64,000 nt of DNA from Alloyangia mangrovi (lineage in GTDB: Bacteria; Pseudomonadota; Alphaproteobacteria; Rhodobacterales; Rhodobacteraceae). The notes below the pieces were generated by a model. It made no database searches. It was given only the letters and a program-made list of their open reading frames with translations, and was not told the DNA's origin. Made by a program: the position numbers and the translations under genes. Each line of letters opens with the position of its first letter. Position 1 is the first letter of the stretch. Shown in pieces: positions 50,697 through 57,033 of this stretch. The stretch spans positions 62,001 to 126,000 of the forward strand of contig NZ_NTHN02000008.1 in assembly GCF_002300555.2 (NCBI RefSeq), given 5' to 3'.

Positions 50697-51506
50697 TCAG
50701 AGATCCAGCTCGACCCAGACCGGCACGTGGTCCGACGGCTTGTCGCGGCCGCGGATGTCGCGGTCGATGCCGCAATCGGTCATCAGGTCGGCGCAGGCGG
50801 GGGTCATCAGCACGTGGTCGATGCGGATGCCGTTGTTTCGCTGCCAGGCGCCCGCCTGGTAGTCCCAGAAGGAATAATGCCCCGGTCCCTGCACCCGGGC
50901 GCGGAACGCCTCGGTGAAGCCGAGGTTGAGAATGCGGCGGAAGGCATCGCGGCTCTGCTGCAGGTAAAGCGCGTCCTTCTCCCAGGCCTGCGGCTTGGCG
51001 GCGTCCTCGGCCTGCGGAATGATGTTGTAGTCGCCCGCCATCAGGGCGGGGGTCTCGTCGGCCAGCAGTTGCTGCGCGCGGGCGTGCAGCCGGTCCATCC
51101 AATCGAGCTTGTAGCCGTATTTGCCGTCGCGGATCGGCTGGCCCTCCGCGTCGAACTCCACCGGGTTGCCGTTCGGCAGGTAGAGCCCGCAGAGGCGCAC
51201 GGCTTCCTTCTCGCCCACGACCGTCGCCTCGATCCAGCGCGCCTGCTCGTCGCTGTCGTCGCCGGGCAGGCCGCGGCTGACGTCCTCGAGCGGGTGCTTC
51301 GACAGGATCGCCACGCCGTTGAAGCTCTTCATGCCGTGGGTCTCGACGTTGTAGCCGCGCTCTTCGAAGAGTTCGCGCGGGAAGGCCTCGTCGACCGACT
51401 TGATTTCCTGCAGCAACGCGACATCGGGCTGGGCCTCGTCGAGCCAGTCCGTCAGCGCGCCGGCGCGCGCCTTGATGCCGTTGATGTTGAAGGTGGCAAT
51501 CTTCAT
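50697..51506 (-). CDS. xthA: Exodeoxyribonuclease III
   Basis: 269 residues from the ATG at 51506. It is an AP endonuclease and 3' exonuclease of base excision repair. The EEP fold motifs are FNINGIKAR, LLQEIKSVDEAFP, MAGDYNIIPQAEDA, RIDHVLMTP and KPSDHVPVWVEL, which include catalytic Glu, Asp-Asn and Asp-His residues. A frame upstream to 51815 is open but runs through AT-rich regulatory sequence, so the shorter start is preferred. Confidence 0.95.
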   Translation of the reverse strand: MKIATFNINGIKARAGALTDWLDEAQPDVALLQEIKSVDEAFPRELFEERGYNVETHGMKSFNGVAILSKHPLEDVSRGLPGDDSDEQARWIEATVVGEKEAVRLCGLYLPNGNPVEFDAEGQPIRDGKYGYKLDWMDRLHARAQQLLADETPALMAGDYNIIPQAEDAAKPQAWEKDALYLQQSRDAFRRILNLGFTEAFRARVQGPGHYSFWDYQAGAWQRNNGIRIDHVLMTPACADLMTDCGIDRDIRGRDKPSDHVPVWVELDL

Positions 51507-51649
51507 CTGGAGCCCTCCGAAGTTGCGCCAGCTATCGCGCAAAGCCGGCGGAGGGACAAGGCCGGCTGTCCGGATTCGGTGGCGATTCGGCCGCAAAAGG
51601 CCGCGATTCGGAGGCAATTTTCGAATTTGGGTGACGCTAGGGAAACTAT

Positions 51650-51835
51650 CCCCAGAAAAAAAACTTTCTGTGGGGAAACGAGATTGTCGCGCGGGGTGAC
51701 GAAATTGTAAGTCATTGTTTCTGTGAAGAACTTCTGTATTAATACACCTTAACAAGAAACCATATTGCCTGAAGCAAGCATCGCAAGAAACCCTGAAGCA
51801 CGTTTCTCGTGTCAATCCAACCAGGGAGATCTTCC
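51650..51835 (+). promoter_or_regulatory. AT-rich regulatory region before the FTSGA-repeat gene
   Basis: The 329-base gap between xthA and the repeat gene contains CCCCAGAAA / TTTCTGTGGGG as an imperfect hairpin (51650-51675), a possible promoter TTGTTT (51715-51720) with TATTAA (51737-51742) at 16-base spacing, CAAGAAACC twice (51753-51761 and 51784-51792, 31 bases apart) and CTGAAGCA twice (51769-51776 and 51793-51800). The base composition is clearly more AT-rich than the surroundings. The ribosome-binding site AGGGAG is at about 51823. Confidence 0.5.
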
Positions 51836-52171
51836 ATGACTGCTCAACTCAAGGAAATCGTGACTGCAGAAGCCCGGGACCGCATCGACGCCGATCTGTT
51901 CGGCGGCGAGGGCTGCGCCATGTTCACCTCGGGCGCCGCACCCGCCGGGGCCGAAACGCTGCTCGGCGGCGGAGTCGAGATGTTCACCTCGGGGGCGGCG
52001 CCCGCGGGGGCCGAGATTGCCTCGGGCGAGGGGGCGGCGCTCTTCACCTCGGGCGCCGGGCCGGTGACTGCCTCGGGCGAGGCGGTCGGCCTCTTCACCT
52101 CAGGGGCAGCGCCACTGCGCTCCGAGATCGGCGCAGGCGACGCCACGGCGCTCTTCACCTCGGGCGCCTGA
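51836..52171 (+). CDS. FTSGA-repeat protein, candidate multi-core peptide precursor
   Basis: 111 residues from the ATG at 51836, with AGGGAG upstream. The N-terminal 26 residues (MTAQLKEIVTAEARDRIDAD, then LFGGEG) look like a helical leader. After Cys27 come five copies of [M/L]FTSGA, with Phe at 30, 50, 70, 87 and 107, spaced 20, 20, 17 and 20 residues, mostly followed by APAGAE-like linkers; the last copy ends the protein. Third-base differences between copies show selection on protein rather than DNA. There is no signal peptide or membrane helix. I do not recognise the family; it may correspond to an existing DUF that I cannot verify. Confidence 0.8.
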   Translation: MTAQLKEIVTAEARDRIDADLFGGEGCAMFTSGAAPAGAETLLGGGVEMFTSGAAPAGAEIASGEGAALFTSGAGPVTASGEAVGLFTSGAAPLRSEIGAGDATALFTSGA

Positions 52172-52260
52172 GCCCTCGCGCACGGGCGGGCGCCGCTCCG
52201 GTGCCCGCCTGTCACCGCCTGTGTCCTGTTCTTGCTCCCGCGCGCAGAAAGGCTCTCCGC

Positions 52261-53334
52261 ATGTCCAATGTCGTCGCCCTTCGCCCTTCGCCCCGCGTCG
52301 CCGACCCGGACAGGCGCATCGCGGCGCTGATCGCCTGTTTCGCGCTGCATCGCCGCAGCGAGGAGGATGTGTTCTGGCTCAAGGAGAACGCCGAGCTTTT
52401 GAACATCCTCGACTGTACCGGCGCGGCGAGATGGGCCGGGATCGGCCCGCAGGCGCTGCTGCCGCATGCCGAGTTCTACACCAGCGCCGAGGCGCGGCTG
52501 GCCTTCTTCCCGCAATACTACCGCTTCCTGCTGTCGATGGTGCTCGACCTCGAGGACCTCGGGATGCCCGGAGAGACCGGCGCGCGTATGGCGCGGAGCA
52601 TCGCGGCGTCCGGCGCGCCCGGGACCGAGCTGTCGGACCTGCAGCGCATGGAGGCGCGGCGGCTGCTGGCGCGGCGAGCGGTTTCCGGTCCGGCCGATCC
52701 CGGCCTCGAGGACCGGCTGCGCGATTTCTGCGCCCGGCCGGGCACCTTTGCGCTGCCGAACAAGAAGGCGGCCTACGAGCTTACCCATATCGTCTTCTAC
52801 CTCAGCGAATACGGCCGCCGTGATCCGCGCCTGGCCCCCGAGGCGCTGACCAGCCTGCAGTTCGCCGGCCACCTCGCCTTTCTCGAGCAGAACTCCGACC
52901 TGCTGGCCGAGGTCTGCATCGCGCTGCGCTACGCCGGCGAGCTGCCGCCGGCGCTCTGGACAAGCTGGCTAAGCCGCGAGACGCAGCTCTTCCATGTAGA
53001 GGCGGACCCGCAGGGCCCGCTGCAGGACGGCTACCACGATTTCCTCGTCTGCAATTGGCAGCTGGCCCTGTCGGGCGACGAGCCCTTCCGCAAGCCGCTG
53101 GTGCCGGGGCGCATGCGCTTCGACCGGGCGGCACAGCGGCTCGCGCCGCTGCGCGAACTGTCGCGGGCGCTCTTTGCCATGAAGGGCGGGCGCAGCGCCG
53201 ATTGGGTGGTGATGCGCCGCCGCATGGAGGGAGCACTGCCGCCCATGGTGCTCGAACTGCTCGACGTCATGGCCCGCGAGACGGCTCATTTTGACGCATT
53301 CTTCGAGGGGTTCGCCCGGGCGGGCCGGGCATGA
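52261..53334 (+). CDS. Protein of unknown function next to the FTSGA-repeat gene
   Basis: 357 residues from the ATG at 52261, preceded by AGAAAGG. The protein appears helical and soluble, without signal peptide or membrane segments. Recurrent features are FWLKENAELLNILDCTGAAR, KKAAYELTHIVFYLSEYGRR, a Cys in LLAEVCIALRYAGELPP and DGYHDFLVCNWQLALSG; conserved-looking His, Asp and Cys could be catalytic or metal-binding, but no known motif matches. The stop overlaps the EamA transporter start by 4 bases. Its place directly after the repeat gene suggests it acts on that product. Confidence 0.85.
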   Translation: MSNVVALRPSPRVADPDRRIAALIACFALHRRSEEDVFWLKENAELLNILDCTGAARWAGIGPQALLPHAEFYTSAEARLAFFPQYYRFLLSMVLDLEDLGMPGETGARMARSIAASGAPGTELSDLQRMEARRLLARRAVSGPADPGLEDRLRDFCARPGTFALPNKKAAYELTHIVFYLSEYGRRDPRLAPEALTSLQFAGHLAFLEQNSDLLAEVCIALRYAGELPPALWTSWLSRETQLFHVEADPQGPLQDGYHDFLVCNWQLALSGDEPFRKPLVPGRMRFDRAAQRLAPLRELSRALFAMKGGRSADWVVMRRRMEGALPPMVLELLDVMARETAHFDAFFEGFARAGRA

Positions 53335-54208
53335 GGGCGGCGCTCACCGGCGCAGCGCTGGTCGCGGTCTACACCGCGCTCATCGCCGCGGCGGACGGGA
53401 TCACCAAGCTGATCGCCGGAGGCTACGCGGCCCCGCAGTTCTTCGCCCTGTCTTCGGCCATGGTGCTGGTCTTCGCGCTCTGCGCGGCACGGCGGCAGGG
53501 GCCGCTGCGCGAGGCGCTGAGCCTGCGGAGCCGCCGCATCATGGCGCTGCGCGCGCTGCTGACCGTGCTTGCCGCCACCGGCTTTTTCCAGGCGTTCCGC
53601 CTGCTGCCCTTTGCCGATGTCTTCCTCTTCATCGGGCTCATGCCGCTCATCGCCGCCGCGCTTTCCGGCGCGGCGCTTGGCGAGCCGGTCCGTCCCGCCT
53701 CGTGGCTGGCGCTGGGGGTCGGCGCCGCGGGCATCCTCGTGCTGGTGCCCGAGGGCCGGGCTGGCTGGGCGCGGGGCACCTCTGGGCGCTGCTGGCCGCT
53801 GTGTCGGGCACCGCCTCGATGGTCGCCTCCCGCGCCATCGCGCGGCGCGAGCGCAAGCCGCTGGCGCAGGTCTTCTGGCCCAACCTCGCGCTGGCGCTGG
53901 TCATGGGCGCGGCGCTGCCCCTCGTCTGGCAGCCGATGCCGCTTGCTGACTGGCTCTGGGTGGCGGGCTACGCGCTCTTCCTCTTCGGCGCGCGCTATGT
54001 CTCGGTCGAGGCGCTGCGGCTGCTCCCGGCCTATGTCGCGACGCCGCTGATGAACCTGCAGTTCGTCTGGATGGTCGGCATCGGCTTTTTCGGCTTCGGA
54101 GAGCTGCCCGGTGTCGGCCCCATGTTCGGCGCCGCGCTGGTGATCGGCTCGGGGCTCTGGCTGGTGGCCGACGAGGCGCTGCCGGCGCGGCGGCGGCTGC
54201 GCGCGTAG
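53331..54208 (+). pseudogene. EamA/DMT-family transporter, frameshifted as sequenced
   Basis: The first frame gives MRAALTGAALVAVYTALIAA and several helices up to LGVGAAGILVLVPEG near residue 142. Near 53753 one G seems lost: with GAGGGGCC the frame continues PGWLGAGHLWALLAAVSGTA and joins a second frame with [40 protein letters not shown] and [20 protein letters not shown], ending at 54208. The repaired product would be about 292 residues with roughly ten membrane helices in two EamA halves, the family standard. It is translationally coupled to the unknown gene before it and may export a product of this cassette. Confidence 0.85.

Positions 54209-54357: not shown

Positions 54358-57033
<2,676 letters not shown>

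Follow-up and report, generated by a model that had tools for sequence, protein, structure and literature searches.

The stretch of DNA analysed here, hereafter the window, comprises 64,000 nucleotides of Alloyangia mangrovi (Rhodobacteraceae in the GTDB lineage) and is part of contig NZ_NTHN02000008.1 (C158 in our numbering, in which G denotes genomes and L loci) of a draft genome of 5.53 Mb. Between a divergent exonuclease III gene and alaS lie three plus-strand units, which encode a repeat protein, a protein of 357 residues and an EamA-type transporter whose frame is split. The first open reading frame (ORF; 51836..52171) encodes a putative multi-core precursor peptide of 111 residues, in which a leader-like N-terminus of 29 residues (51836..51922, MTAQLK...LFGGEGCAM) is followed by five FTSGA cores (51923-51937, 51983-51997, 52043-52057, 52094-52108 and 52154-52168). 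As a preliminary description of the locus had noted, the protein has a single cysteine, at residue 27 on visual inspection, and the cores are spaced 20, 20, 17 and 20 residues apart, with the last at the C-terminus; the FTSGA codons vary among the five copies, at third positions, so that the repeats are kept at the protein level. The ORF of the 357-residue protein (52261..53334) is likewise as described there, and the following start codon overlaps it by 4 bases. The protein had been thought to belong to no recognised family. It is in fact a member of Pfam DUF6902, with DUF6895 as second match, both being function-unknown families in Pfam. It is a putative peptide-modifying enzyme and has several residues in common with DUF6895.

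DUF6902 was detected in 55 of 198 genomes of the window's family and in none of 14 control genomes. A profile of the precursor found 52 of the 198, all of them within the 55 DUF6902-positive genomes, and none of the 143 negatives. Two of the DUF6902-positive genomes missed by the profile are G099, where a small upstream ORF has two copies of MMCCS, and G139, where the locus ends at the contig edge. One scan of GTDB species genomes gave 336 relatives of the query; 80 of them were retained and pooled with loci from other searches, duplicates being merged when the DUF6902 protein was identical, to yield 97 distinct DUF6902 proteins. An in-frame repeat ORF is present upstream at 95 of these 97 loci, including four (L043, L064, L109 and L118) where the unit pattern failed and the ORF was entered by hand upon inspection. 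The two exceptions (L024/L045 and L044) contain runs of N, which at L044 are flanked by repeats on both sides. With a repeat ORF at 95 of the 97 loci and the profile confined to DUF6902-positive genomes among the 198, the association is beyond chance, and the co-occurrence of the two genes that the preliminary description proposed as a check is borne out. From linkage and repeat anatomy, the locus would thus seem to have a gene-encoded precursor with leader and core adjoining a putative modifying enzyme, the arrangement by which ribosomally synthesised and post-translationally modified peptides (RiPPs) are recognised. The nearest named loci among the relatives from the contig scan are those of two strains of Alloyangia pacifica, a species placed in Roseobacteraceae by the NCBI taxonomy, with 86% and 80% identity in DUF6902.

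Across the relatives the precursor has a recurrent anatomy. The leader starts with MxA in 78 of 88 cases and has a lysine at position 6 in 79 of the 88; these counts, like those on the promoter below, leave out four contig-cut loci and L103, L118 and L080. Each of the modules that follow, mostly of 20-21 residues, consists of a constant frame, G-D/E-x-x-x-x-F, and a short core. The cores are spaced 20 or 21 residues apart in 94% of 662 spacings, and the last one coincides with the end of the protein in 63 of 95 precursors. The number of copies does vary, as had been raised beforehand, from 2 to 20 per precursor with a median of 8, and the gap to DUF6902 has a median of 64 bases (27-342). In the precursors of L012, L110, L112 and L116 some cores also stand in close pairs, 8 residues apart (FTSGLVQMFTSGL or similar), giving a nested two-core module. 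The window precursor matches no family in Pfam or NCBIfam. When 30 precursors were compared with the curated families, the matches were scattered, each in at most three members, and were read as composition matches; the best in Pfam was zf-FCS (1.5e-11, two members), and those in NCBIfam included a FlmA-family RiPP peptide (0.0081, one member). The precursor profile finds a single locus in G000, and a DNA search for second copies within the same genome gave two further matches, of only 33-37 bases, with nothing related among the ORFs at L003, the locus of one of them. The precursor ORF on the L085 contig, titled Enemella evansiae, an actinobacterium, is identical to that of G002 (L029), a genome of the window's family, and the record is probably mislabelled or contaminated.

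The cores are the same within a precursor and different between precursors. Modal cores include FTSGA, FTSGS, FSSGS, FTSWS, FVSWS, FTCGL, FTSCA, FTSAA, FCSAS, FTTSC and IMSAS, among others; they are rich in Ser, Thr, Cys and Gly, and core position +2 is mostly Ser, also Cys, Thr or Asn. Homogeneity was measured with an anchor blind to the core, requiring only G at −6 and F at 0, on 676 units from the 90 of 95 precursors that had at least three anchored units (L118 was left out of the core counts). The cores were fully homogeneous in 83 of the 90. Identity among copies was 0.98-0.99 at all four core positions from +1 to +4, compared with 0.50, 0.85, 0.44 and 0.49 between precursors, and identity of the whole tetramer was 0.97, as against 0.13 when units were shuffled among precursors. 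In 94 precursors the ratio of nonsynonymous to synonymous divergence (pN/pS) was lowest in the core (0.08, at a pS of 0.51), intermediate in the frame before it (0.41) and highest in the spacer (0.78), for copies chosen with at most one core mismatch, a detector that favours homogeneity. Synonymous divergence together with a low pN/pS implies that many of the copies did not arise by recent duplication and that the core is kept identical at the protein level; on these sequence comparisons the cores are under strong purifying selection. When the core was mapped as a label onto the DUF6902 tree (93 rows), 41 changes were needed, compared with a mean of 65.8 for shuffled labels. At the near-sister loci L008 and L087, separated by 0.046 changes per column, all seven copies are FTSGS in the one and all six are FSSGS in the other, and copies with matching flanks differ in Thr versus Ser codons. 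Mixed cores are found in a few precursors: L094, L095 and L103 (TSGS/TTSA, CSWS/SSLS and STSC/SSGS).

The 357-residue protein matches Pfam DUF6902 (PF21843) over the whole model (1-351 of 351) with 512 bits against a cut-off of 27 (E 6.9e-154). DUF6895 is matched with 80.3 bits against a cut-off of 23.8 (E 2.1e-22), DUF6902 remaining the best family. Comparison of 31 DUF6902 with 7 DUF6895 sequences by hhalign gave a probability of 96% and an E of 4e-9 over residues 84-240, and paired H176, D213 and E217 with their DUF6895 counterparts. A joint alignment shows no variation at H176, G185, D213, E217, Y258 and H259 among 99 distinct DUF6902 and 8 DUF6895 proteins, the 99 including three from a genus of another class and excluding one divergent protein. 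The latter, of 365 residues (G039, L172:2331-3428), scores 129 bits and adjoins xthA, the gene of exonuclease III; on inspection its TH, E and YH motifs are missing, and no repeat ORF precedes it. It is a degenerate DUF6902 copy in which the shared residues and the precursor are both gone, a natural control that is telling, with n=1. A search of solved structures by sequence with the DUF6902 or DUF6895 alignment gave no match. The predicted structure of DUF6902 is almost all helical, with a predicted local distance difference test score (pLDDT) of 91.4 and a predicted template modelling score (pTM) of 0.90. Of the Foldseek matches listed, the one with the highest probability was a chain of complement C3 convertase (0.90, TM score 0.39, E 0.3), other rows being an RNA-editing protein (0.75), a C3b chain (0.47) and a C4b chain (0.38). 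For the predicted model these rows are at most a weak hint of an alpha/alpha toroid fold in DUF6902.

The third unit (53331..54208, plus strand) encodes an EamA-type membrane transporter, a putative exporter, which had been described as one gene. Its frame is broken near 53760-53775: the frame opened by the ATG at 53331 resembles EamA as far as about 53774, and the rest of the gene, which also matches EamA, is open only in another frame (53774-54208). Intact EamA orthologs are present in near relatives, Alloyangia pacifica DSM 26894 being an example of a relative with an unbroken gene, and the split in the window may be an assembly error or a recent loss. With the intact EamA of L034 as query, and a sample of 22 of the 55 DUF6902-positive and 17 of the 143 negative genomes, matches of at least 200 bits adjoining DUF6902 were found in 18 of the 22 and in none of the 17, where the best reached 131 bits. 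Among 62 distinct loci from the contig scan EamA follows DUF6902 at 43 (partially in L106 and in the contig-cut L088).

Upstream, xthA (50697-51503, minus strand, identified by the Pfam scan) diverges from the precursor gene and is present in the same position at 60 of these 62 loci. No match was found to indicate carriage of DUF6902 on a plasmid, and together with the near-constant xthA neighbourhood this makes an endogenous role more plausible than that of a mobile bacteriocin. That EamA is merely a neighbour of xthA was considered and ruled out, since no EamA ortholog occurs in the 17 DUF6902-negative genomes. Fifteen xthA loci from DUF6902-negative genomes, 8 kb each, gave no match to the EamA or alaS queries and no repeat ORF. 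The alaS gene, which in the window lies 3′ of EamA (54358-57033, Pfam), adjoins the cassette at 4 of the 62 loci and is not a general feature.

The intergenic region between xthA and the precursor (51504..51835), presumably the precursor promoter on the plus strand, contains in the window only degenerate forms of the DnaA box, for example TGTGAAGAA at 51722. Among the relatives, 87 loci had the required minimum of 200 upstream bases, and xthA was found at 86 of them. An exact DnaA-box nonamer is present on either strand in 59 of these 86 xthA-precursor regions, with clusters around −101 to −116 and −154 to −211 relative to the start of the precursor. In 200-base upstream segments it occurs in 58 of 87, compared with a mean of 0.1 and a maximum of 2 in 50 dinucleotide shuffles, a test that is post hoc as the nonamer was first spotted by eye in the same sequences and then counted. 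On the precursor strand alone it occurs in 54 of 87, compared with 1 of 4016 other segments from the same loci. In 15 DUF6902-negative genomes it did not occur within 500 bases upstream of xthA. An exact CtrA-type TTAAN7TTAA was present in 4 of the 87 upstream regions. From these patterns we infer that DnaA may bind at the nonamers, which suggests that expression of the precursor could be under replication-linked control. The same intergenic region of the window has an imperfect inverted repeat, ctatccccagaaa ... tttctgtggggaa, at 51640-51679, seen by eye.

In the window's own class, 3 of 289 genomes exceeded the DUF6902 cut-off; all three belong to the window's family, and the window's genome is among them. 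The cassette recurs in another class of the same phylum: in the order of G537 four genomes, of one genus, were covered, and three of them have DUF6902. At two of these loci, L179 and L187, the upstream ORF contains three [FLY]GCY cores; the third (L188) is cut upstream, and EamA, as judged by Pfam, lies downstream of DUF6902 in all three. No xthA was noted alongside, and the DnaA-box nonamer was not found at any of the three. A small precursor-like ORF was also seen upstream at 6 of 12 DUF6895 loci (L114, L115, L122, L123, L124 and L192). These six share a loose leader (e.g. SGLIDMNTTLEQL) and a hydrophobic end (GPWFVL, GPWYIY, LAWDKYVLVV, LATKHFLLRG), and are likely to represent a second precursor family. 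This supports, without proving it, the view that the DUF6902/DUF6895 superfamily may act on small ribosomal peptides. On plasmid p1 of Streptomyces fungicidicus (L125:2718-4603) two adjacent DUF6895-type genes are found near a cytochrome P450 and a serine hydrolase; a small ORF there does not have the usual leader.

A constant frame, a core that is homogeneous yet varies between species, a near-obligate partner related to a published RiPP epimerase and a co-distributed EamA together make a RiPP-type system the best account of the locus, and the earlier proposal of a modified-peptide system with multiple cores is upheld as a candidate. Taken as a whole, the interpretation that we favour, with modest confidence, is that DUF6902 matures a RiPP-type precursor with several cores, probably through epimerisation, and that EamA exports the product. 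The separate parts are not equally secure. That the repeat protein is the precursor and DUF6902 its modifying enzyme appears very likely from the linkage. Export of the peptides by EamA would seem rather likely given its distribution. Epimerisation as the chemistry of DUF6902 is advanced more tentatively; it draws on the homology, on the six shared residues and on an epimerase published for the DUF6895 family, which to judge by the title of the paper acts on lasso peptides (Shi et al, ACS Catal 2026, 10.1021/acscatal.5c08590; cited in PMC13352647).

Such a system might work as follows. The cell would first synthesise a precursor whose short leader is followed by 2-20 modules, in each of which a constant frame, which may serve for recognition, accompanies a short core. 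DUF6902 would bind the modules and modify the core; the most likely modification is epimerisation at an alpha-carbon, yielding a D-residue, and for this it would use the His/Asp/Glu/Tyr/His set that it shares with the DUF6895 proteins. The cores would then be released by a host protease encoded outside the cassette, and EamA would export the resulting short, species-specific peptides.

Several observations weigh against this interpretation. DUF6902 is a separate Pfam family that is 18% identical to DUF6895 over the hhalign region, and Foldseek gave no match at E ≤ 0.001 among the best 50 of 319 rows. The degenerate protein of G039 is above the DUF6902 cut-off without the shared residues, so that membership of the family alone does not imply function. 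The leader has neither a double-Gly motif nor a signal peptide that could be recognised by eye, and no protease or second maturase was recognised alongside, the neighbours being assigned to families by sequence and position. At the other 6 of the 12 DUF6895 loci (L125 and L180-L184) no clear precursor was seen by eye. Finally, there is no EamA at 19 of the 62 loci, 15 of which are Marivita or lie inside the Marivita clade of the tree, and the gene is split in the window and apparently also in G009. EamA is therefore dispensable; on its distribution it is part of the cassette and can be lost.

The alternative that survives best keeps the RiPP-type cassette and gives DUF6902 a different chemistry, for example dehydration, cyclisation or backbone modification of the core. 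The abundance of Ser, Thr, Cys and Gly in the cores would suit this, and in distinct Pfam families as far apart as DUF6902 and DUF6895 the reaction may differ. LanC cyclases have an alpha/alpha toroid fold, to which the complement C3 row of the Foldseek search is at most a weak pointer. The conservation of all six invariant residues in DUF6895 argues instead for retained catalysis, and the fact that no core residue is obligatory in every species fits a reaction at the backbone carbon, and we consider a different chemistry rather unlikely. It is distinctly less probable that the repeat protein serves in unmodified form as a scaffold or an array of ligands, with DUF6902 as its binding partner or chaperone, a role that an almost all-helical predicted structure with weak solenoid-like Foldseek rows might allow. 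Near relatives switch the core in all copies while the enzyme is conserved, the transporter is co-distributed, and DUF6902 is homologous to a family with a published epimerase, each of which argues against a scaffold. That the repeat protein has a storage, surface or regulatory function unrelated to its neighbours is very improbable, for while the adjacency, with xthA upstream in 60 of 62 loci, could by itself reflect a stable chromosomal site, the repeat protein occurs in 0 of 143 DUF6902-negative genomes and the cassette recurs in another class where no xthA was noted.

A RiPP system with several cores matured by DUF6902 would have partial parallels among known systems. Fungal pheromone precursors such as that of alpha-factor contain identical short peptides in repeat, which vary between species and undergo eukaryotic secretory processing; unlike the DUF6902 cassette they have no modifying enzyme of the DUF6902 type. 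The lasso-peptide epimerase of DUF6895 is from a related family by Pfam and profile comparison, with six invariant residues in common, and DUF6895 likewise has a small precursor-like ORF upstream at 6 of 12 loci, whereas DUF6902 is its own Pfam family with 18% identity and its proposed substrate is a tandem-repeat precursor. Neither a lasso protease nor a lasso cyclase was found in the Pfam scan of DUF6902, both EamA halves, three upstream proteins (exonuclease III, a glutaredoxin and a GNAT protein) and the downstream alaS. MslH, of the lasso peptide MS-271 (PMC10406935), acts on a ribosomal peptide by epimerising an alpha-carbon, which is the reaction suggested here for DUF6902; it is described as metal-dependent and shows no link to DUF6902, whose only Pfam matches are DUF6902 and DUF6895. 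Multi-core microviridin precursors (PMC5934393) similarly combine one precursor, several cores and one processing enzyme, but are cyclised by a peptide cyclase, which DUF6902 is not known to be, and the window precursor is in no curated family.

Among the papers listed by our literature search there was no mention of DUF6902, PF21843 or PF21836, and DUF6895 stood in one, in a reference list. FTSGA was found in uses that are unrelated by title, with no repeat-precursor system in the titles or abstract starts among the matches listed. RiPPs as a kind are known; the precursor family, its partnership with DUF6902 and the promoter appear to be undescribed in the literature searched. A bolder proposal, which we hold to be doubtful as a whole, is of a new RiPP class, in many Rhodobacteraceae and one genus of another proteobacterial class, in which a lone DUF6902 would mark every tandem core, with D-residues or otherwise, under a DnaA-box promoter in most relatives, the exported species-specific peptides, switching in all copies, serving as a replication-linked signal or weapon.

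What has been found looks like an undescribed route to species-specific modified peptides in marine bacteria. Should DUF6902 indeed epimerise several sites per chain, it would offer a compact means of producing peptides with D-amino acids, and in the precursors nature supplies a set of short cores with which to study how a leader or a module guides peptide modification. For the uncharacterised DUF6902 family there is now a substrate that can be tested and a likely class of reaction, and, with cores that are uniform in most precursors and switch between sisters, selection on peptide sequence becomes testable in environmental bacteria.

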